DNA from: Maricaulaceae bacterium EIL42A08
Lineage (GTDB): Bacteria > Pseudomonadota > Alphaproteobacteria > Caulobacterales > Maricaulaceae
DNA: 64,000 bases
Reading direction: 5' to 3'
Assembly (NCBI GenBank): GCA_024178355.1
Contig: JAMZNZ010000006.1
Coordinates: 310,001 to 374,000 of the forward strand
In this document: piece by piece, positions 50,735 to 58,882 of the stretch
Layout of the letters: each line of letters starts with the position of its first letter
Numbering within the stretch: the stretch's first letter is position 1
Translations under genes and position numbers: made by a program
The notes under the pieces: model-generated
What the model saw: only the letters and a program-made list of their open reading frames with translations
Database searches by the model: none
Told to the model about the DNA's origin: nothing

Positions 50735-50751
50735 TGGCGGAGAGAGAGGGA
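50735..50751 (+). repeat. Attachment-site repeat, left (attL)
   Basis: TGGCGGAGAGAGAGGGA, identical to the 3' end of the tRNA-Ser gene at 58793-58809 and in the same orientation. The sequence after it (CTCTCC) departs from the tRNA sequence (TTCGAA). It marks the likely left junction of the element. Confidence 0.88.
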
Positions 50752-50821
50752 CTCTCCGCTATATCTAATAAAGCTATTATAAATCAGTTACTAAGACATA
50801 AAAGAGTGTACCGAATGAAGC

Positions 50822-50838
50822 TGTAACGTCCCGTTACA
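50822..50838. promoter_or_regulatory. Left-end palindrome shared with the integrase promoter
   Basis: TGTAACGTCCCGTTACA, 7-bp perfect arms, followed by CAT. GTGTACCG stands 8 bases before it (50806-50813). The same pair of blocks recurs in inverted orientation at 58719-58752. It may be an integrase arm-type or excisionase site, or an operator. Confidence 0.6.
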
Positions 50839-50849
50839 CATTGGAAGTT

Positions 50850-50981
50850 CTAGGCGGTGGCGTCAAGCGCCGCTAGCTCAAGCCCCGATAGCTCGGCGTC
50901 CACCTCATGCACCCTCCCGGCCAGCCTCTCCCAACCAATCAGCAGTGAGATAAGCGTCTCCCAGTAGCCGTTAGCGGCTAT
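50850..50981 (-). pseudogene. Start-less ORF remnant at the left end of the element
   Basis: An open frame of 43 codons without a start runs between two stops and reads like the end of a real protein (GYWETLISLLIGWERLAGRV and then HEVDAELSGLELAALDATA). It is probably the 3' stub of a gene lost by deletion or left at the element's edge. No family recognised. The rest of the 514-base gap 50573-51086 holds attL, the palindrome at 50822, and nothing else I can support. Confidence 0.45.
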
Positions 50982-51086
50982 TCAGTGTTTGAAGCTTTCG
51001 TTTGATTTTGGTTGTGTAGTGCTGGAGAGAGCATAGTCTCTTTTCTCCGACAAATTGTACAATTGCGTCTGAGCTAAGGAACGCCA

Positions 51087-51734
51087 ATGATTGCGGTAAC
51101 TACGCCCCAAAAGATCGCTGAATCTCCGGGACGGGGTATTGAGCTACAGCAAAGCATTCCCGACGACGCATCGGCTCCTCGCTTACACCTCCGGCGAGAG
51201 GTTTTAGATGGTTATCCGAACCTAAAGCGCGCCTACACTGAGCTGACAATTGGTGCGGGTGTTGCACTTGTACTCGCAATTCCTTCTGGGTTTGCCTCAA
51301 TTGGCTTTGGTGTCATTGTCGGTGGGCTTTTTTGGTATTTAGAGCGATACCGTCCCGCCATGCTCGGAGAACAGGAAAAACAGTTTTTTCTGGAGATAAG
51401 CGGGTCCGCTGAAGCAGCTGCCCTCCTTCAACAGGAAATGACGCAGAGACGCTGGAAGAAGCCTGACTTGGTAACTCTTGCAGAAGAGGTGGGACGGCGA
51501 GCGCAATACGCTGAGCGGACGGATTACTTCTGTAGCGAGTTTTGCATCCTCTTGTCCGAGCTTTCTGGCATCCACGGTTATAGCTTGGAGCAAGGATGGT
51601 CCGCGTATCGGCAGTGGCGCAATGGCTATCGTGATGAAGACTTGAATAGTTCAAGCCGCGCAGAGCGGATCGACAACATGTTCGGATATATAAAATCCCA
51701 TACAACGTCGGACGGAGTTTTCCGACCAAGGTAA
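51087..51734 (+). CDS. Hypothetical membrane protein of the element
   Basis: 215-residue protein not recognised. A hydrophobic hairpin at about residues 53-84 (LTIGAGVALVLAIPSGFASIGFGVIVGGLFWYL) is followed by a soluble helical part (MLGEQEKQFFLEISGSAEAAALLQQEMTQRRW) containing LSELSGIHGYSLEQGWSAYRQWRNGY. Codon use is less GC-biased than in the flanking chromosome. It stands alone on the plus strand near the left end. Confidence 0.6.
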   Translation: MIAVTTPQKIAESPGRGIELQQSIPDDASAPRLHLRREVLDGYPNLKRAYTELTIGAGVALVLAIPSGFASIGFGVIVGGLFWYLERYRPAMLGEQEKQFFLEISGSAEAAALLQQEMTQRRWKKPDLVTLAEEVGRRAQYAERTDYFCSEFCILLSELSGIHGYSLEQGWSAYRQWRNGYRDEDLNSSSRAERIDNMFGYIKSHTTSDGVFRPR

Positions 51735-52048
51735 CTGATGCGCTCAGGTTTCAGCTTTAGTGCGGAAACATGAAAGGCATTCAAGAGGGGTCGTTCAAAT
51801 TACCAAACAATCTGTCGGGTCTCTTGATGTATAGCGCGGCGCGAGTTTCCCCCTTGCCCCCTCGCGCTCCGTGAGAGTGCGAAGGCTGGGGGTGGAGGGT
51901 ATGTTATTAAATTATTCTCTCGTGAGGGGGGCGTTGAATTTAAGTGAGATGTCAGCGCCTCGAAGGGTCTCAGGTAGGGTACCAAACAAAAAGCGCTGAA
52001 GGCTCCCACATCCTAGCAAAAATGGACGCGAGGGGCATTGTAGCCCCC
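51735..52048. other. Gene-free stretch inside the element
   Basis: 314 bases between two convergent genes. It holds a GC-rich imperfect hairpin (about 51860-51883) and an AT-rich patch. A 69-codon minus-strand frame (51800-52009) has no protein-like composition. I see no supported gene. Confidence 0.5.
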
Positions 52049-52606
52049 CTACTCAGCCTGTAATGCCCGATATACTGACGCCCGACCGATGCCCAGTCGC
52101 TGAGCTATCTCGGTCTTGGCGACACCCTGAGCAGCGAGAGCCTTGATCTCTTCAGCCTTGGCCATCGCTGTGGGGGCGCGTCCCTTATACTTCCCAGCTT
52201 CCTTCGCTTTGGCGATGCCTATCCGTTGGCGCTCAAGCATCAGCGAACGCTCGAACTCTGCGACCGACCCGATGATGCCCATGACCATCTTCCCATGCGG
52301 TGTCGATGTGTCTAGGCCCATGTCTAGAACCCTGAGTCCAACGCCACGTGTCTCAAGTTCAGTCCTGATCGACATCAGGTCAGGCAGCGAGCGTGCTAGG
52401 CGGTCCAGCTTCGTCACGACCAGTGTGTCTCCCTGTCGAAGGTAGGATAACGCGGCGTCGAACTCAGGGCGCTCTTGAGCTACCGCGCTGACCTGTTCGC
52501 TGAAGACCTTGGTGCACCCTTCTCTTTGAAGCGTGTCGAGCTGATCTTGGTAGCTGTAGCTCTGATCGACCGTTGATGTCCTGGCGTATCCGACTGTCTC
52601 ACTCAT
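52049..52606 (-). CDS. Serine recombinase (resolvase/invertase family)
   Basis: 185-residue small serine recombinase. The catalytic serine is Ser11 in YARTSTVDQSYSYQDQLD. Other family blocks are present (DTLVVTKLDRLARSLPDL, HGKMVMGIIGSVAEFERSLMLERQRIGIAKAK), with a C-terminal helix-turn-helix (KTEIAQRLGIGRASVYRAL). It acts on sites with paired repeats; candidates lie directly upstream (52622-52690). It may resolve dimers of the element or invert a segment. TAGGAG precedes the ATG by 7 bases. Confidence 0.93.
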   Translation of the reverse strand: MSETVGYARTSTVDQSYSYQDQLDTLQREGCTKVFSEQVSAVAQERPEFDAALSYLRQGDTLVVTKLDRLARSLPDLMSIRTELETRGVGLRVLDMGLDTSTPHGKMVMGIIGSVAEFERSLMLERQRIGIAKAKEAGKYKGRAPTAMAKAEEIKALAAQGVAKTEIAQRLGIGRASVYRALQAE

Positions 52607-52621
52607 GTCTGTCTCCTAGTG

Positions 52622-52690
52622 TGTCTCAATGACATTTGAGACATATGAGTCCGACTGTATCAGAAGTCAATATATGATTTGTGTGATACA
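52622..52690. promoter_or_regulatory. Inverted repeats upstream of the resolvase (possible res site)
   Basis: TGTCTCAA-TGACAT-TTGAGACA (52622-52643) is a perfect 8-bp inverted repeat, 16 bases from the resolvase start. Further out, TGTATCA (52656-52662) and TGATACA (52684-52690) form a second pair. Two spaced dyads ahead of the recombinase fit the layout of a res site that also represses the gene. Confidence 0.55.
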
Positions 52691-52742
52691 CTCGACCTGA
52701 GCAGCTGAGGCGTACCAATAGAGCATGGTCTATTGAGATGCC

Positions 52743-53351
52743 TCAGGCAGTAGAGGTCGCCGTTTCTGGTTTTCGTGCGTAGCCCATTTGGTTCCGATCA
52801 AACGTCGAGACCTCGTCTCCGCCAACGCCGTCTGGATCGGCGATTGGTTGCCCATCTTCGTCGGTTTCTATTTTGTGCTTGAAGGTCTTGTAACGCCCAA
52901 GCGCTTTGAGCGCATCATGAAGCTCGCCTTTGGTTTGCCCATACCAACCACGCATCTTGTCGGTGGCGTTCGTGTATCCCTCCCAGTGGTCGAAGAAGGT
53001 GCTGACGCTCCTACTGTAAGAGTCGACCGCTGGTCCAACCTTGCCACCAAGGCCAGAGGCGCGAGCTTGTGCTTTGACCTCGTCAATGCGCGCGATGAAC
53101 TGCCCTCTTAACGTTGTAGCCACATGATCTTGAAGCTTGGCCCCACCACCGCGACCGAACGCTATATCCGCCAGGTGTCTTTGGATCGAAAATAATTGTG
53201 AAGCAGCGTTATCACGTGCAGTCCGCCTCGCAAGATATCCCCTGAACAGAAAAACACCGAGCGTCAGCACCACTGAGGTAATCGGATGGTCGAGGCGGTC
53301 GAATCCGGAGAGCGCCGCTGCGGTTATCCGTTCTAGATCGAAATTGGTCAT
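52743..53351 (-). CDS. Hypothetical membrane-anchored protein of the element
   Basis: 202-residue protein not recognised. One membrane helix (ITSVVLTLGVFLFRGYLA, about residues 24-41) is followed by a helical soluble domain (ASQLFSIQRHLADIAFGRGGGAKLQDHVATTLRGQF, SRSVSTFFDHWEGYTNATDKMRGWYGQTKGELHDALKALG). The ATG at 53351 follows GGAGGGAG and is better than 53363. Confidence 0.6.
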   Translation of the reverse strand: MTNFDLERITAAALSGFDRLDHPITSVVLTLGVFLFRGYLARRTARDNAASQLFSIQRHLADIAFGRGGGAKLQDHVATTLRGQFIARIDEVKAQARASGLGGKVGPAVDSYSRSVSTFFDHWEGYTNATDKMRGWYGQTKGELHDALKALGRYKTFKHKIETDEDGQPIADPDGVGGDEVSTFDRNQMGYARKPETATSTA

Positions 53352-53570
53352 CGCTCCCTCCAACGCAACTGTTTTGCTTAGCCTAATGCTGGTGCTGTCA
53401 GAAGAAACTGCCCGTTAGCCGGCACGCGGTCAGAATGCTAGCATGACCAGCCGCCCACGCCTCCGTCCACAACCACTTCAACCACGACCGATCCCTAGAA
53501 CGCCGATCCAGATTTAAGGACCTTCGCGACGCCGCCCTCATCGAGTGGCGCGATTGGCTGAGGACCTAAA

Positions 53571-53804
53571 TTAACAGACGCGTCTGCTCTCGTATAACCT
53601 TGGCGTAGGTGTTGCCGCAACGGTCCCATTGGCGCATCCAACGATGTAAGTGCCTTGCTGTGTGGTCGAGGGAATAATCACTGTAACCCCACTTCCAGCT
53701 TGCGCTTCTGCGTTGGGTTGCCCCAGTAAAACGACACCAGTGCTCGAGCCAACGGCTAGTGCTAGCATTATTCCGAAGACAGACGCGATCTTAGCCAATT
53801 TCAT
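53571..53804 (-). CDS. Small exported protein of the element
   Basis: 77-residue protein with an N-terminal hydrophobic signal (KLAKIASVFGIMLALAVGSSTGVVLL). The short mature part is rich in Thr/Val (GVTVIIPSTTQQGTYIVGCANGT) with two cysteines. GGGAGA lies before the ATG at 53804. The family is unknown and secretion is an inference from the signal alone. Confidence 0.5.
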   Translation of the reverse strand: MKLAKIASVFGIMLALAVGSSTGVVLLGQPNAEAQAGSGVTVIIPSTTQQGTYIVGCANGTVAATPTPRLYESRRVC

Positions 53805-53996
53805 TTTTTTCTCCCAGCAGAAGGCTTTTAGGTGTTCATACCGAAGCATGAAATGGAAGGATAATGCCACCCCTCAATAACTCTTTTTTCGGATGGCGAA
53901 GTACAAATTGAATCATTAGAGAAAATCTATTTGGAGCGTCTTAGGGCATGGTCTAATGGCTCATGGTCGATCATTAACTTCGCCTTAAAGGAGAGC

Positions 53997-54941
53997 GTGA
54001 TTATTTTGGACGTCTTTTTTGTTGTAGGAAATAGTTGTGCAATGCCTTTGACGAACGGTGAGTTAGGTCCCATTCTAGCAGCCATAAGCATTATGGCCTT
54101 AAACGTTTCTACGGCGTATGGCGACGAACGGCTATCCTCAACCATATCGTCACAAGACCGGCTAGAGCGAGTTCTTGAGCTTTATGCAGAATTTCCCGAT
54201 GGTCAGGAGGTCGTGGAGTATTTTGCCTGTCAACAGGCGCGAGCTGTTCGGCGTGAAATTCGAAATCAACTTCCTGAAAATACTATAATTCACCTTCCGG
54301 AAGATATATTCCCCGCCGATAATAACCTCAAGCATGAGATAAGAACACTTACTCAGAACCTCCCTCGGCAAGAATCAACTGAATATCGGTCGGAAGTTGC
54401 GAGGTGGGCCGACTATCAAGTAACTTCTGACAATCACATTGATGATTGTGCTAACCTTCTTCTGCCATACGTCTCAGTTCAAGTGACCATTGTGGGGCGC
54501 ATTGAGCGGTCACCTCTGAGCCTGCCAGAGGAAATGCATCCTAATGCGATCGAGGCCGCCAATTTGATGCGGCTTGCGTATCTTGAAGAGCTTGGACCGG
54601 AAGCATGGGATTATCTAGTTTGTGTTGTAAGCCTTCGCCTTGAAGATGCGCCGGCTTTGGAGCCGGGGCATTCTTTCAGCAGTCCGCAATATGTTAACGA
54701 CCCGTTTGGCCAGCAGAGGGTGGAAGAGCGCCTAGATGCGCACAAGGACGATTGGCAAGCCGCTGGCTTAGACCTAAGCGGTCATAGCTTCATTTGGGCA
54801 TTAGAAACAATTTCTGAGCCTAGATTTCTTGAACTTGGTGTGGAGTTCTGTTCTCAAAGACTTCTGGAGGAAGCGGTTACCTCGCAGGAGTTGCTTGATC
54901 GTTTTAGAGAGAACCAAGCTATTTTGAATAGAGGTCGGTAA
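53997..54941 (+). CDS. Hypothetical protein of the element, possibly exported
   Basis: About 314 residues if begun at the GTG at 53997, which follows AAGGAG closely; a TTG at 53931 and an ATG at 54042 are alternatives. A hydrophobic N-terminus (IILDVFFVVG, then GPILAAISIMALNVSTAYG) could be a membrane or signal segment. The rest is acidic and helical, with cysteines in YFACQQARA and DDCANLLLPYVS. The base composition is clearly more AT-rich than its neighbours, which points to separate ancestry. No family recognised. Confidence 0.5.
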   Translation: MIILDVFFVVGNSCAMPLTNGELGPILAAISIMALNVSTAYGDERLSSTISSQDRLERVLELYAEFPDGQEVVEYFACQQARAVRREIRNQLPENTIIHLPEDIFPADNNLKHEIRTLTQNLPRQESTEYRSEVARWADYQVTSDNHIDDCANLLLPYVSVQVTIVGRIERSPLSLPEEMHPNAIEAANLMRLAYLEELGPEAWDYLVCVVSLRLEDAPALEPGHSFSSPQYVNDPFGQQRVEERLDAHKDDWQAAGLDLSGHSFIWALETISEPRFLELGVEFCSQRLLEEAVTSQELLDRFRENQAILNRGR

Positions 54942-55048
54942 AGTCAGATAAGGCGGCTAGCTTGTTGAAGTACTGTCACTTCCAATAACCCAAGTAAGAT
55001 GGGCGGGGCATGCCGGTTCCGATGGCTGCCCCACTTTAACCGGTGGCT

Positions 55049-56395
55049 ATGTGTACCTACTTAGGTGACCCCACTTCGGATCAGGCAGGGTCGGTGAGCA
55101 CCACACGCAACGTCATATCTATAGGCAATGACAAGTATCTGGATCCGTGGCTTCGTCCGGCATCGGATGCGATGAAGCAAATCATTGAGTACGCGAAGCA
55201 CGACATAGAGCGGAGCGAGGACCGAAGGCGCGCCCGCAAGCCAGCCGACCAAGCAATTTTCAACCAAATAGTCGCGGGTGTGCTCTGCGCTATCGCTAAG
55301 CACCACCTTCTCGGATTGGATGGCTGGCTAGTGACCACCAGAAGCAATGACCGTCTTGGATCTGCCGGGCGATACAAGTCGCCATTGGCCTCCAAGCCCT
55401 ATCCAAAGATTTTGGATGCGCTCGCAGCAGAAAACGCCGGGTGGATTGAGCAGCGTATTGGAGTTCAAACTAGGCTCTCTGGTGCGCCAGCGACCACGAT
55501 CAGAGCTTCAAAACGACTTCAGATTTACCTCGAGAAACACGAGGTCGATGTTGAAGATATAAAGCGCGCTGCTGGTGGTGAGATCATTCATCTCAAGGCA
55601 CCGAAAAAGGCAGGGTCGGATGGCGCTAAGCTGATCGATTACGAAGACACGGAGCAAACCAAGAATTGGCGGGATCGACTCACTCAGATCAACGAATTTC
55701 TGGAGAGCGCTGAAATCATAGTCGGTGATCTCGAGCACGTTGATCCGACACAGGTCGCTCTTCGACGGGTCTTTAATAACGGTCGCTTCGATCATGGAGG
55801 ACGACTCGTCGGCGGCTTCTGGCAGAGCATGAGTAGTAAAGACCGGTTCAACGAAATCGAGCTGGATGGCGAGTCCGTGGTTGAACTCGACTATCAACAG
55901 ATGTCGCTCTCGGTCGCCTACGGCCTAGCTGGCCATCCCCTGCCTGCTGGCGATCTCTATGCGCTGGATAAGCTTGAGAGTGTCTGGAATCCGACAATCC
56001 GCAAGCGTGTGAAGCAATACACGAACACCATGCTTCATCGGTCATCACCAATGACAAGGCGACCGAAGGACATTGAGCCTCTAATTGTCGCTGAAGGATC
56101 TAGTGAACGTGAAATCACAGCATCAATGGTGAGAGAAATGGTGCTTGCAAAACACCAACCTATCGAGGGCTGGTTTGAAACTGGCAGGGGTATGGAATTG
56201 ATGTTCCACGAAAGTGAGGTTCTCTTTTGTGTGGCCGAGGCCTTGATGAAGAAAAGCATCATTAGCTTGCCCATCTTCGACGCCATCCTCGTACCTGGAT
56301 CAGCTGCCAGTGAGGCCGAGGGGGTAATGAAGTCTGTCTTTGAACAGGTGACTGGAGGTAAGGCTCGGATCTCTAAAGAGACTGGGGCATCATAG
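55049..56395 (+). CDS. Polymerase-like palm-domain protein of the element
   Basis: 448-residue uncharacterised protein. VFNNGRFDHGGRLVGGFWQ precedes LDGESVVELDYQQMSLSVAYGLAG, where DYQQMSLS aligns with motif A of family-A DNA polymerases (DYSQIELR; Asp281 would be the metal ligand). IRKRVKQYTNTMLH near 318-330 resembles the fingers motif B (R-x3-K). LPIFDAILVP near 408-417 resembles motif C (HDE), with Asp411. The histidine and glutamate of motif C are lost, so activity is uncertain. Proteins of this pattern are usually annotated hypothetical. It may serve replication of the element. The start is ATG 55049 or GTG 55043, with no clear ribosome site. Confidence 0.65.
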   Translation: MCTYLGDPTSDQAGSVSTTRNVISIGNDKYLDPWLRPASDAMKQIIEYAKHDIERSEDRRRARKPADQAIFNQIVAGVLCAIAKHHLLGLDGWLVTTRSNDRLGSAGRYKSPLASKPYPKILDALAAENAGWIEQRIGVQTRLSGAPATTIRASKRLQIYLEKHEVDVEDIKRAAGGEIIHLKAPKKAGSDGAKLIDYEDTEQTKNWRDRLTQINEFLESAEIIVGDLEHVDPTQVALRRVFNNGRFDHGGRLVGGFWQSMSSKDRFNEIELDGESVVELDYQQMSLSVAYGLAGHPLPAGDLYALDKLESVWNPTIRKRVKQYTNTMLHRSSPMTRRPKDIEPLIVAEGSSEREITASMVREMVLAKHQPIEGWFETGRGMELMFHESEVLFCVAEALMKKSIISLPIFDAILVPGSAASEAEGVMKSVFEQVTGGKARISKETGAS

Positions 56396-56492
56396 GATTA
56401 GTTTGATAGATGGGGGTATGGATATCAACTAAGAGCTGTCTGTCCTCCTTCCCCATAGTAGGACTCATAAGAGCTAGCACGCAGCTGTACGA

Positions 56493-57167
56493 ATGACCGT
56501 AGAAGACCCCGACTTCAACAAGTTTCAGAGGAAGCTAATCCGGGCGGATGCCTACCGCGAAACCTGCGTGCTGCCTGAGTGCTCAGAGCCTACCAGCGCG
56601 GCTAGCCTTCAAGGTATCAACAAACGTTTCTGCCGAAAACACTACGAGCACTACCAGCGCCATGGAAGCCCTTACAGAGGCTCATACAAGGCCGCTGAGC
56701 TTCAATCGGCCCGGAAGGCGGCTAGGGCGTGGCTAAGATCTAATCGCGACTCTCAGGGCGTTCTGGCGGCCTTAGAGCGCATTCGGATCCTTTACCGGTC
56801 CGCAGGCCCCCATGTACCGGCCTACCGCCTCAAAGGTATGTTGCCAAAGGAGCGCGCCCGAAAAGCATGGGCGAGGCTTCGGGATGCTCAGGTGGCACCT
56901 GAAAAGATTCTCCTAGCTTGGCTCTCAGTAAACGAGGCGATCCGCACCGACACCAATGCTGATACCAAACCCGAATTCCGGCGCGTGCAAGCTGCCAAGC
57001 TTGTTCATCGGCTAGCGTCAGGCACCCATAAACGCTGGGAGCGGGAGAGAGCTGACGGGTCGAAGCACGTTGAGCGGCTTGATGTTTACCCGCGCAGCCG
57101 TGGGCGGATCTTGAGAGTGCTTGGCGAGGATATCGAACGAGCAATGGAGCCGCTGGGGTTGGATTGA
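56493..57167 (+). CDS. Zinc-ribbon (HNH-like) protein of the element
   Basis: 224-residue basic protein. The N-terminus carries CVLPECSEPTSAASLQGINKRFCRKHYEHYQRHGSPYRG, a C-x4-C...C-x2-H arrangement common in phage HNH-associated zinc ribbons. The catalytic HNH residues are not evident. The rest is helical and arginine-rich (KGMLPKERARKAWARLRDAQV), fit for nucleic-acid binding. It follows the polymerase-like gene by 97 bases and may work with it. Confidence 0.6.
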   Translation: MTVEDPDFNKFQRKLIRADAYRETCVLPECSEPTSAASLQGINKRFCRKHYEHYQRHGSPYRGSYKAAELQSARKAARAWLRSNRDSQGVLAALERIRILYRSAGPHVPAYRLKGMLPKERARKAWARLRDAQVAPEKILLAWLSVNEAIRTDTNADTKPEFRRVQAAKLVHRLASGTHKRWERERADGSKHVERLDVYPRSRGRILRVLGEDIERAMEPLGLD

Positions 57168-57346
57168 TACTCCTCATCGGCTTATGGCCTTAGAGCGCGG
57201 TCTGTTGACCTCTCAAGAGCGGGTCTACGGCTACGCCTGAGCCTGGCACCACGTTTAATTCTGCTATGCCCACATGCCGTTCAGTAACTTTTGGTGCCTT
57301 GGGTAGCCTGAAGCCGCGAAACGGCCTGTGAGCATAGTTAGATTTC

Positions 57347-58705
57347 TTATTTCCAGTATCGCTCTAGCAGCTTGTTCGTCACCCTCTTCTGGAGCTTTGC
57401 CTTTTCTTTCGCCACAGGTCCGCTGGAGTAAACATCGCCAGCGATTGAGCCGGTAACCCTGCGCTGAAGCCTGTCTATTTCGTGAGGCATCAGCTGGGCA
57501 TTCTCAGCGGCGGTGGCGTGTGTGCGTCGGAAGCTATGATTATCGACCTCCGCAGCTCCTGATGCAGGCAGGCCCAGTGCATCGCGCACCGCTGCTCTGA
57601 GTGTTTTGGCGACATTATGTGAATAACCCTGCGCGCCGGGGGTCAGTTCATCGAAGACCATATCCGTAGGGGCTTTGCCTTTGATTCTGCGCTCAAGAAT
57701 TTCCAAAGCGTCGGTCGCTACAACTGGGAACCAATCTTTCGTGCCTTTGCCGCGCTTACCGTCCTTCACGATCAGTCCTGTGATTTTGCCCTTACTGGTT
57801 TTGGTGACCTGCTCGACCCGAAGAGAGCAGAGTTCCTCAATCCTGCACCCCACAAAGAGTAGCAAGATCACGAGATCGATGTGCTTTGGCTCTTTGAGCA
57901 GCCGCTCATGTGTCCGAAGCTTTGCGATTTCCGCAGGCTCAAACGCTCGCTTCTGTAAGTTCTGCTCGGCTTTTATTTTATGGCCGCGCCATGGGTTCAT
58001 CTGCGCTAGGCCCAGCGGCAGCGCCCACTGCCAAAGGGTCCCAAGACTGCTGACTTTGTCGATCACGGTTTTGGGCGCTTGTCCCCGGTCCAAGAGGTCA
58101 TCGATATATGTGGTGGCATCAAGGAAGCTGATGTCCCTCAGCTTGGCATCTTCGACTTCGTACCACTCAGCAAACTCAGCCTGATGGCGAAGGCGCTTCT
58201 TGCGAGTGCGCTGGTCCGTAATACCCCGCCTGTCACAGTGCTCTTTGTACTCATCAGGCGCTGAGGCAAGCGTGACCTTGCCAATAGCTCTTTCCATCCA
58301 CTTGCGAGCTGTCTCATCGCCGTGGACCGCAGCAATCTTTTCAACTTCTTGATCCAATGCAGGGTGCTGGTCATCAACCACATGGACGAAGCCAGAAGGC
58401 TTGGGCTTATCCTCAAATCGCTCAGCTGGGTCGTCGGAGTACACGGCGACCTTTTTAGTCCGAGGTCGTACCTTGAACGCTTTGGCGTCTGGCAGCTGGT
58501 AAACTACCGCCGTCAGCTCTGGCAGGAGAGCGACCGCTTTTGTCTGCGCTTCTCTCCGGTCCTTGGTCTTCAAGCCTCGAACGATTTCCAGCTTGGGCTT
58601 GCCCGACGCTGTTGTGTGGAGGTGCTGAAGATCGCTCGGTATGTAAACGCGAATAGCGTATCCGCCACCGCGCCGGGTCAGGAGATTCCACTTCAAAGCG
58701 TTCAT
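57347..58705 (-). CDS. int: Tyrosine-type site-specific integrase
   Basis: 452-residue phage-type integrase. The catalytic residues are visible: Arg288 in VGCRIEELCSL, a lysine in the DGKRGKGTKDWFPV hairpin, His390-x2-Arg393 in HSFRRTHATA and nucleophile Tyr426 in GDVYSSG. An arm-binding/core-binding N-terminal half precedes (YAIRVYIPSDLQHL, LDATTYIDDLLDRGQAPKTVIDKVSSLGTLWQWALPLG). It reads away from the tRNA-Ser gene 88 bases off, which is its likely target. A palindrome shared with the left end of the element sits in its promoter. Confidence 0.95.
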   Translation of the reverse strand: MNALKWNLLTRRGGGYAIRVYIPSDLQHLHTTASGKPKLEIVRGLKTKDRREAQTKAVALLPELTAVVYQLPDAKAFKVRPRTKKVAVYSDDPAERFEDKPKPSGFVHVVDDQHPALDQEVEKIAAVHGDETARKWMERAIGKVTLASAPDEYKEHCDRRGITDQRTRKKRLRHQAEFAEWYEVEDAKLRDISFLDATTYIDDLLDRGQAPKTVIDKVSSLGTLWQWALPLGLAQMNPWRGHKIKAEQNLQKRAFEPAEIAKLRTHERLLKEPKHIDLVILLLFVGCRIEELCSLRVEQVTKTSKGKITGLIVKDGKRGKGTKDWFPVVATDALEILERRIKGKAPTDMVFDELTPGAQGYSHNVAKTLRAAVRDALGLPASGAAEVDNHSFRRTHATAAENAQLMPHEIDRLQRRVTGSIAGDVYSSGPVAKEKAKLQKRVTNKLLERYWK

Positions 58706-58718
58706 ACCCTATTAGATG

Positions 58719-58735
58719 TGTAACGGGCCGTTACA
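58719..58735. promoter_or_regulatory. Palindrome in the integrase promoter region
   Basis: TGTAACGGGCCGTTACA with 7-bp arms, 14 bases upstream of the integrase ATG. On the minus strand it continues CAT, and GTGTACCG (58745-58752) lies 9 bases before it, matching the blocks at 50806-50841. Confidence 0.6.
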
Positions 58736-58792
58736 TTTCAAGGCGGTACACTATCGCCTAAATCTCTGTTTTATATGAACTTTAAAGAGAAT

Positions 58793-58809
58793 GGCGGAGA
58801 GAGAGGGAT
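58793..58809 (+). repeat. Attachment-site repeat, right (attR, in tRNA-Ser 3' end)
   Basis: TGGCGGAGAGAGAGGGA on the plus strand, the reverse complement of the tRNA 3' end with CCA, identical to 50735-50751. Confidence 0.88.
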
Positions 58810-58882
58810 TCGAACCCTCGGAACGCTTGCGCGCTCAACGGTTTTCGAGACCGCCCCGTTCGACCACTCCGGCACCTCTCCG
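58793..58882 (-). tRNA. tRNA-Ser (anticodon CGA)
   Basis: 90-nt class II tRNA with CCA encoded. The acceptor GGAGAGG pairs with TCTCTCC. The anticodon arm reads CGGT-CTCGAAA-ACCG with anticodon CGA, a long variable arm is present, and the T-arm is GAGGG-TTCGAAT-CCCTC. It decodes UCG. Its 3' 17 bases (58793-58809) are the right attachment site of the neighbouring element, and integration leaves the tRNA intact. Confidence 0.97.

Follow-up and report, generated by a model that had tools for sequence, protein, structure and literature searches.

A compact element at a tRNA-Ser(CGA) gene of a Maricaulaceae bacterium encodes a tyrosine integrase and a probable TV-Pol-type A-family polymerase

We have analysed a stretch of 64,000 nt (hereafter the window, whose coordinates are used throughout) from Maricaulaceae bacterium EIL42A08 (assembly GCA_024178355.1, contig JAMZNZ010000006.1, positions 310,001 to 374,000 of the forward strand). 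The segment 50735-58808 is, with good probability, an integrative element residing at the 3′ end of a tRNA-Ser(CGA) gene, with a core made of a tyrosine integrase and a TV-Pol-type polymerase. The observations that carry this assignment are exact terminal repeats, an intact tRNA gene, inverted repeats near the ends, the predicted fold and motifs of the polymerase, the recurrence of the integrase with the polymerase in other genomes and the empty sites of one relative. Replication of the window element and its movement between cells are what we infer. The original prediction, made from the sequence alone, had proposed a small integrative element in this tRNA gene; the repeats, the intact tRNA and the inverted repeats bear it out.

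Ends of the element and attachment site

The 17-mer TGGCGGAGAGAGAGGGA occurs at 50735-50751 and 58792-58808, with no further match in the 64 kb at up to three mismatches. The left copy was exactly where the original prediction had put it, while the right one had been given as 58793-58809. By chance 0.20 matches would be expected, and two or more were found in 1 of 100 shuffles. At up to one mismatch the genome-wide count is two, both being the ends of the element; on the counts in the window and in the genome a chance repeat was rejected. The attachment repeat grows to 20 nt if one mismatch is accepted. ARAGORN detects an intact tRNA-Ser(CGA) at 58792-58881 on the minus strand, so that the repeat is the exact 3′ end of the tRNA. 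The element, 8,057 bp from repeat to repeat (50735-58808), is located on the 3′ side of this tRNA, the side usually occupied by tRNA-integrating elements.

An imperfect inverted repeat of 37 nt (50805-50841 and 58716-58752, 81% complementary) has the palindromic core TGTAACGNNCCGTTACA; its arms lie 53 bp inward of the left attachment copy and 39 bp inward of the right one. The ungapped score of 19.5 was reached in none of 300 shuffles (shuffle maximum 11.0), and within the 64-kb window the palindrome is present in the two arms only. The inverted repeat is an independent mark that the ends of the element are real. Integrase arm sites are laid out flanking the recombination core, as both arms would be in a circle, and the arms are probably such sites.

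The G+C content is 0.48-0.57 inside the element and about 0.60 outside. When the joined flanks were compared with the tRNA-Ser locus of congeners, similarity began at the tRNA 3′ end (position 351) or at most 8 nt before it, which means that the DNA specific to the window genome begins there. The ends and the two core genes are as follows.

50735-50751 (no strand): distal attachment repeat that copies the tRNA-Ser 3′ end (exact over 17 nt, or 20 nt allowing one mismatch)
50805-50841 (no strand): left inverted-repeat arm with palindromic core, 37 nt, 81% complementary; probable integrase arm site
55043-56395 (plus): TV-Pol-like A-family polymerase (probable), 450 aa, GTG start; alignments, AlphaFold2 model, PDB matches to PolI, phrog_4756 at 4e-33
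57347-58705 (minus): tyrosine integrase, 452 aa; DUF6538 and Phage_integrase
58716-58752 (no strand): right arm of the 37-nt inverted repeat
58792-58881 (minus): intact target gene, tRNA-Ser(CGA); the proximal attachment repeat is formed by its final 17 nt (58792-58808)

The integrase gene, which had been recognized next to the tRNA in the original prediction as well, is 86 bp from it and reads away from it.

A second, near-palindromic 17-mer, TAGRGCRYGGTCTRWTG, is present in three copies (52719-52735, 53942-53958 and 57191-57207), all within the element. The copies are operator-like; the pattern was built from the copies themselves, so the shuffle control for it is not independent.

The polymerase

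The cargo of the element had been described as mostly unknown. This holds for orfA to orfD, which have no family at a meaningful E-value; the open reading frame (ORF) 55043-56395 is probably a homologue of TV-Pol-type A-family polymerases and a primase-polymerase, as judged from predicted fold and motifs. The ORF gave nothing meaningful in Pfam, NCBIfam and PADLOC and matched phrog_4756 (4e-33), a PHROGs family of unknown function. A sequence search of PDB produced no match, and a scan of the genome contigs with the polymerase returned 26 stretches, none of them confirmed.

The AlphaFold2 model has a predicted local distance difference test score (pLDDT) of 83. Its best Foldseek hit, at E 1.1e-6 and probability 1.00, is to DNA polymerase I (PolI), with a TM-score of only 0.25. 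VIA-align superposed the model on a PolI-type polymerase with Z 14.3 and a root mean square deviation of 4.5 over 253 residues (residues 178-450). Residues R242, R254, D283, K324 and D413 are invariant in an alignment of 13 sequences and are present in 53 of 53 sequences of a larger one, in which R320 is conserved in 51 and D304 in 49. D283 and D413 are the palm aspartates, R320xxxK324 is the fingers motif, and R242 and R254 fall on model strands 241-244 and 252-256 of a beta-hairpin that precedes the palm. The protein as modelled carries the features listed for TV-Pol in 2008 (PMC2579912): a hairpin arginine, two palm aspartates, the fingers Asp with RxxxK and a superfamily A fold. The N-terminal half of the model has helices mixed with strands; in TV-Pol proteins an all-helical N-terminal domain occurs in a subset of the family, and a D5-like helicase is likewise linked in a subset of members and is not required of all (PMC2579912).

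The original prediction had offered two ways for such an element to persist, a helper or its own replication protein; the encoded homologue of A-family polymerases gives direct support to the second.

Relatives and their tRNA targets

Homologues of the polymerase were found in 15 of 299 genomes of the order, 30 of 385 genomes of the class Alphaproteobacteria and 24 of 398 genomes of the phylum, 23 of the 24 belonging to Alphaproteobacteria (the window genome is included in each count). From the order search 14 of 15 non-window matches were examined (G180, a 3.2-kb contig, was left out). The class search contributed 26 places, leaving out four weak matches at about E 1e-15, G411, G469, G679 and second fragments of one gene, and the phylum search 18 places, leaving out G828 and small secondary fragments. 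Locus L197 is on the same contig as L134 and was counted once.

In 17 of 41 polymerase loci, the window included, the gene lies between the 3′ end of a tRNA and an exact copy of that end of at least 15 nt. All 17 bracketed loci are on the 3′ side of the tRNA and have a tyrosine integrase inside; their repeat-to-repeat size is 3.2 to 17.3 kb (median 8.3 kb). Lengthening five loci in which the ends had not been placed added three, to give 20 of 41. A second sample yielded 7 bracketed loci of 18, and in two of the seven the integrase ORF extends to the tRNA end and did not count as lying inside; the named Rhodobacterales homologues were bracketed by tRNA repeats in four of four cases. As a control, 16 tRNA-Ser(CGA) loci from relatives that lack the polymerase were examined, and one of them had such a repeat. 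Across the elements the targets are tRNAs for Ser, Leu, Val, Gly, Thr, Arg, Cys, Glu, Ala and Gln, with attachment repeats of 15-66 nt taken from the tRNA ends. The only genes that recur throughout the 17 delimited elements are the polymerase and the integrase.

The polymerase genes of L197 (at tRNA-Cys) and of L198/L199 (at tRNA-Ser) share 78-81% DNA identity, which suggests that the polymerase can be kept when the tRNA target changes. Closest to the window element in content is L051, at tRNA-Leu, with resolvase, orfE, polymerase and integrase; no distal repeat was found for it, even in the lengthened stretch. End inverted repeats are seldom seen elsewhere: among the 16 other elements only L141 scored above all 200 shuffles, the repeats being weak in L138, L145, L052 and L134 and not seen in the rest.

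Two further arrangements were seen at tRNA genes. In L150 with L193, the end of tRNA-Leu(GAG) is repeated in tandem several times over about 20 kb, and L150 has two integrases, as if elements had stacked. In the congener G004, an 8.4-kb segment at the corresponding tRNA-Ser is enclosed by the same 17-mer as in the window (L066:3573-11945). No integrase or polymerase homologue was found in this segment, and our reading of it is a decayed or trans-mobilised occupant of the tRNA.

Empty sites

When the flanks of the G063 element at tRNA-Val are joined, they match G701 (88%, 1-651) and G148 (78%, 1-650) without a break. These two are the empty sites among 41 congeners; G695 has the flanks about 2.2 kb apart, and the others match one flank or the tRNA only.

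Cargo of the relatives

For the cargo, 65 ORFs chosen from the 17 elements were scanned; among the matches listed were DNA methylases, subunits of type I restriction systems and an enzyme of NgoMIV type, and MADS models were matched as well. The 10.4-kb tRNA-Gly element L062:7281-17747 has, together with an integrase and a TV-Pol-like gene, Cas9, Cas1 and Cas2 and an array of roughly 25 CRISPR units, each 66 bp long. Its cargo is a complete CRISPR-Cas9 locus, met once among the relatives. In one of the 17 elements the cargo matches thymidine hypermodification enzymes, with one member each for aGPT-Pplase3, ADDT and thymidylate synthase.

Other genes of the window element

The remaining six ORFs of the element are listed below; families were sought in Pfam, NCBIfam, PHROGs and PADLOC.

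51087-51734 (plus): orfA, 215 aa, cargo; no family at a meaningful E-value
52049-52606 (minus): serine resolvase/invertase, 185 aa; PF00239 at 2e-41; homologues in 4 of the 17 delimited elements, the window included
52743-53363 (minus): orfB, 206 aa; no meaningful family
53571-53870 (minus): orfC, 99 aa; no meaningful family
53931-54941 (plus): orfD, 336 aa, cargo; no meaningful family
56493-57167 (plus): orfE, 224 aa, N-terminus with Cys and His residues, modelled as helical; three other loci have a homologue next to the polymerase gene

The serine resolvase noted inside the element in the original prediction was confirmed, and its statement that conjugation and virion genes are lacking is supported: no relaxase or transfer gene was matched in Pfam or NCBIfam, and no head or packaging PHROG among the eight ORFs. 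Homologues of orfE adjoin the polymerase gene in L049, L051 and L059. Its predicted model is helical (pLDDT 72) and has no fold match at E 0.001; a role as single-stranded DNA-binding protein (SSB) is unsupported by such a model. A casposon was considered and rejected, as no Cas1 family is present among the window ORFs.

Proposed mechanism and points against it

In the mechanism that we propose, the integrase would bind the inverted repeats as arm sites and, recombining across the 17-bp core, release the element as a circle; on this circle the polymerase would start and extend DNA synthesis, with a host helicase helping; the resolvase would resolve dimers, and the circle would re-integrate into a tRNA-Ser. 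For passage between cells we assume hitch-hiking on conjugation, transduction or transformation. The excision and re-integration steps are suggested by the anatomy and by the empty site of a relative, and synthesis on the circle by the fold, the motifs, their conservation and a prediction published in 2008 (PMC2579912). A biochemical precedent comes from a related system, in which CcPol, together with its partner MP, synthesises DNA in a primer-independent way (PMC10061031).

Several observations weigh against the element being what we propose. The motif-C His is found in 51 of the 53 aligned sequences, one having Asn and one, the window copy, Phe; the activity of the window polymerase could be reduced by this change. 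The best ORF in 150 of the 162 kb of Microcystis phage LMM01, a phage said to hold a published TV-Pol, matches the window polymerase with E 0.074. No helicase family was detected among the eight ORFs scanned, unlike in the characterised CcPol systems. Polymerase loci without tRNA brackets are numerous (21 of 41 and 11 of 18), some of them at contig ends. The control with tRNA-Ser(CGA) loci (1 of 16) is a partial one, covering one tRNA species and stretches of 7-16 kb versus up to 20 kb for the polymerase loci. As to empty sites, none of six congeners has the full join for the L142 element. The check named in the original prediction, an empty site joining the flanks of the window element, was also run: the flanks are joined in none of 14 congeners, the match being on the tRNA side only. 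In these congeners the test could not succeed because the left flank does not stand next to this tRNA-Ser in any of them. The gene immediately left of the tRNA-Ser is shared by no two of 16 relatives, and the orthologue of the glucosidase in G002 is on a contig that, at 4,184 bp, is too short, and not at the tRNA.

Alternative explanations

An ordinary small genomic island, moved by its integrase alone and replicated only with the chromosome, the polymerase being cargo or a relic, is the foremost alternative, and we consider it unlikely. It would agree with the lack of a helicase or recognised initiator among the ORFs, with the loss of the motif-C His in the window polymerase and with a relative, L063, that keeps the integrase and has a polymerase shrunk to 173 aa. 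However, apart from the integrase gene only the polymerase gene persists through 17 elements of otherwise different cargo; it is retained across the change from tRNA-Cys to tRNA-Ser (L197 versus L198/L199), and its catalytic aspartates do not vary.

Slightly less probable still is a phage satellite, in which a helper phage would trigger excision, replication and packaging. The size resembles that of satellites, and phage head or packaging genes (at least a terminase) are present on 9 of 18 IMG/VR contigs with this polymerase (L118, L111, L113, L114, L116, L117, L120, L121 and L122). Nevertheless, the eight ORFs of the window element match no head or packaging PHROG, and direct head-gene queries that found the IMG/VR cases matched none of the 41 chromosomal loci; the family counts by alignment, which list the first 25 families, are incomplete evidence on this point.

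Two of the IMG/VR contigs are circular. L118:1-9932 (9.9 kb, 127-nt terminal repeat) has a terminase, a portal, a protease and a major head protein; no integrase was found in it, and it looks like a capsid-making satellite. L115:1-13249 (13.2 kb, 99-nt terminal repeat) encodes, besides the polymerase, a serine recombinase and a phage replication-initiation protein, and it also has a match to a virion protein.

A remnant of a larger conjugative element or prophage, which would account for the ORFs of unknown function and for transfer genes not being found in Pfam, NCBIfam and PHROGs, is very improbable, as both ends, the integrase frame, the inverted repeats and the tRNA are intact and the size fits that of the 16 other delimited elements. 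An integrative element with an integrase–polymerase core is the explanation that we retain.

Comparison with known systems

In 2008 Iyer, Abhiman and Aravind had already predicted mobile elements that carry TV-Pol together with resolvases and integrases of the lambda type (PMC2579912), so that the window element cannot be called undescribed without qualification. It resembles the elements of that prediction in polymerase motifs and size, in the neighbourhood of a gamma-delta resolvase and a lambda-type integrase, in having a host from Alphaproteobacteria, which are among the hosts named there, and in the spread through mobile elements and viruses. The elements were proposed in 2008 to be replicative transposons, and in the example worked out there the direct repeats are some 200 nt long (PMC2579912), in contrast to the repeats of 15-66 nt from tRNA ends, the inverted repeats of the window element, the two-gene core and the defence cargo seen here. 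What is new with respect to that prediction is the tRNA attachment sites, the integrase–polymerase core and the cargo; we found no account of tRNA-delimited TV-Pol elements in the open-access literature, a scope that excludes subscription journals and most preprints. A prediction hardly followed up in the open literature searched thus gains elements whose ends and targets are defined, with an empty site and a core of two genes. Two questions become testable: whether an A-family enzyme starts DNA synthesis alone in vivo, and by what route CRISPR-Cas9 and restriction systems are spread by small elements that lack transfer genes.

Staphylococcal cassette chromosome (SCC) elements with CcPol-MP or PolA-SSB primases also have an A-family polymerase near site-specific recombinases and a cargo of genetic conflict; in them the polymerase comes with an oligonucleotide/oligosaccharide-binding (OB)-fold SSB and a helicase, and the recombinases are mostly large serine recombinases, whereas here no helicase was found and orfE is modelled as helical (PMC10061031).

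Phage satellites of the phage-inducible chromosomal island (PICI) type have a comparable size, an integrase and their own replication gene; unlike in them, no packaging or capsid gene was found in the window element.

Pipolins combine a tyrosine recombinase with a tRNA attachment site, a feature that the window element has too. Both are small integrative elements with their own DNA polymerase, which is the B-family piPolB in pipolins and has an A-family fold and motifs here. As a wider and tentative proposition, which we regard as a real possibility, Alphaproteobacteria may host a broad class of compact tRNA-integrating elements that have no constant genes other than those for a tyrosine integrase and a self-priming A-family polymerase, as a second, independent solution of the pipolin design; such elements would shuttle defence systems, a complete CRISPR-Cas9 locus included, and one branch, with phage head genes, would have become a capsid-making satellite. 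The window element itself has the build of a pipolin, with an A-family enzyme in place of piPolB.

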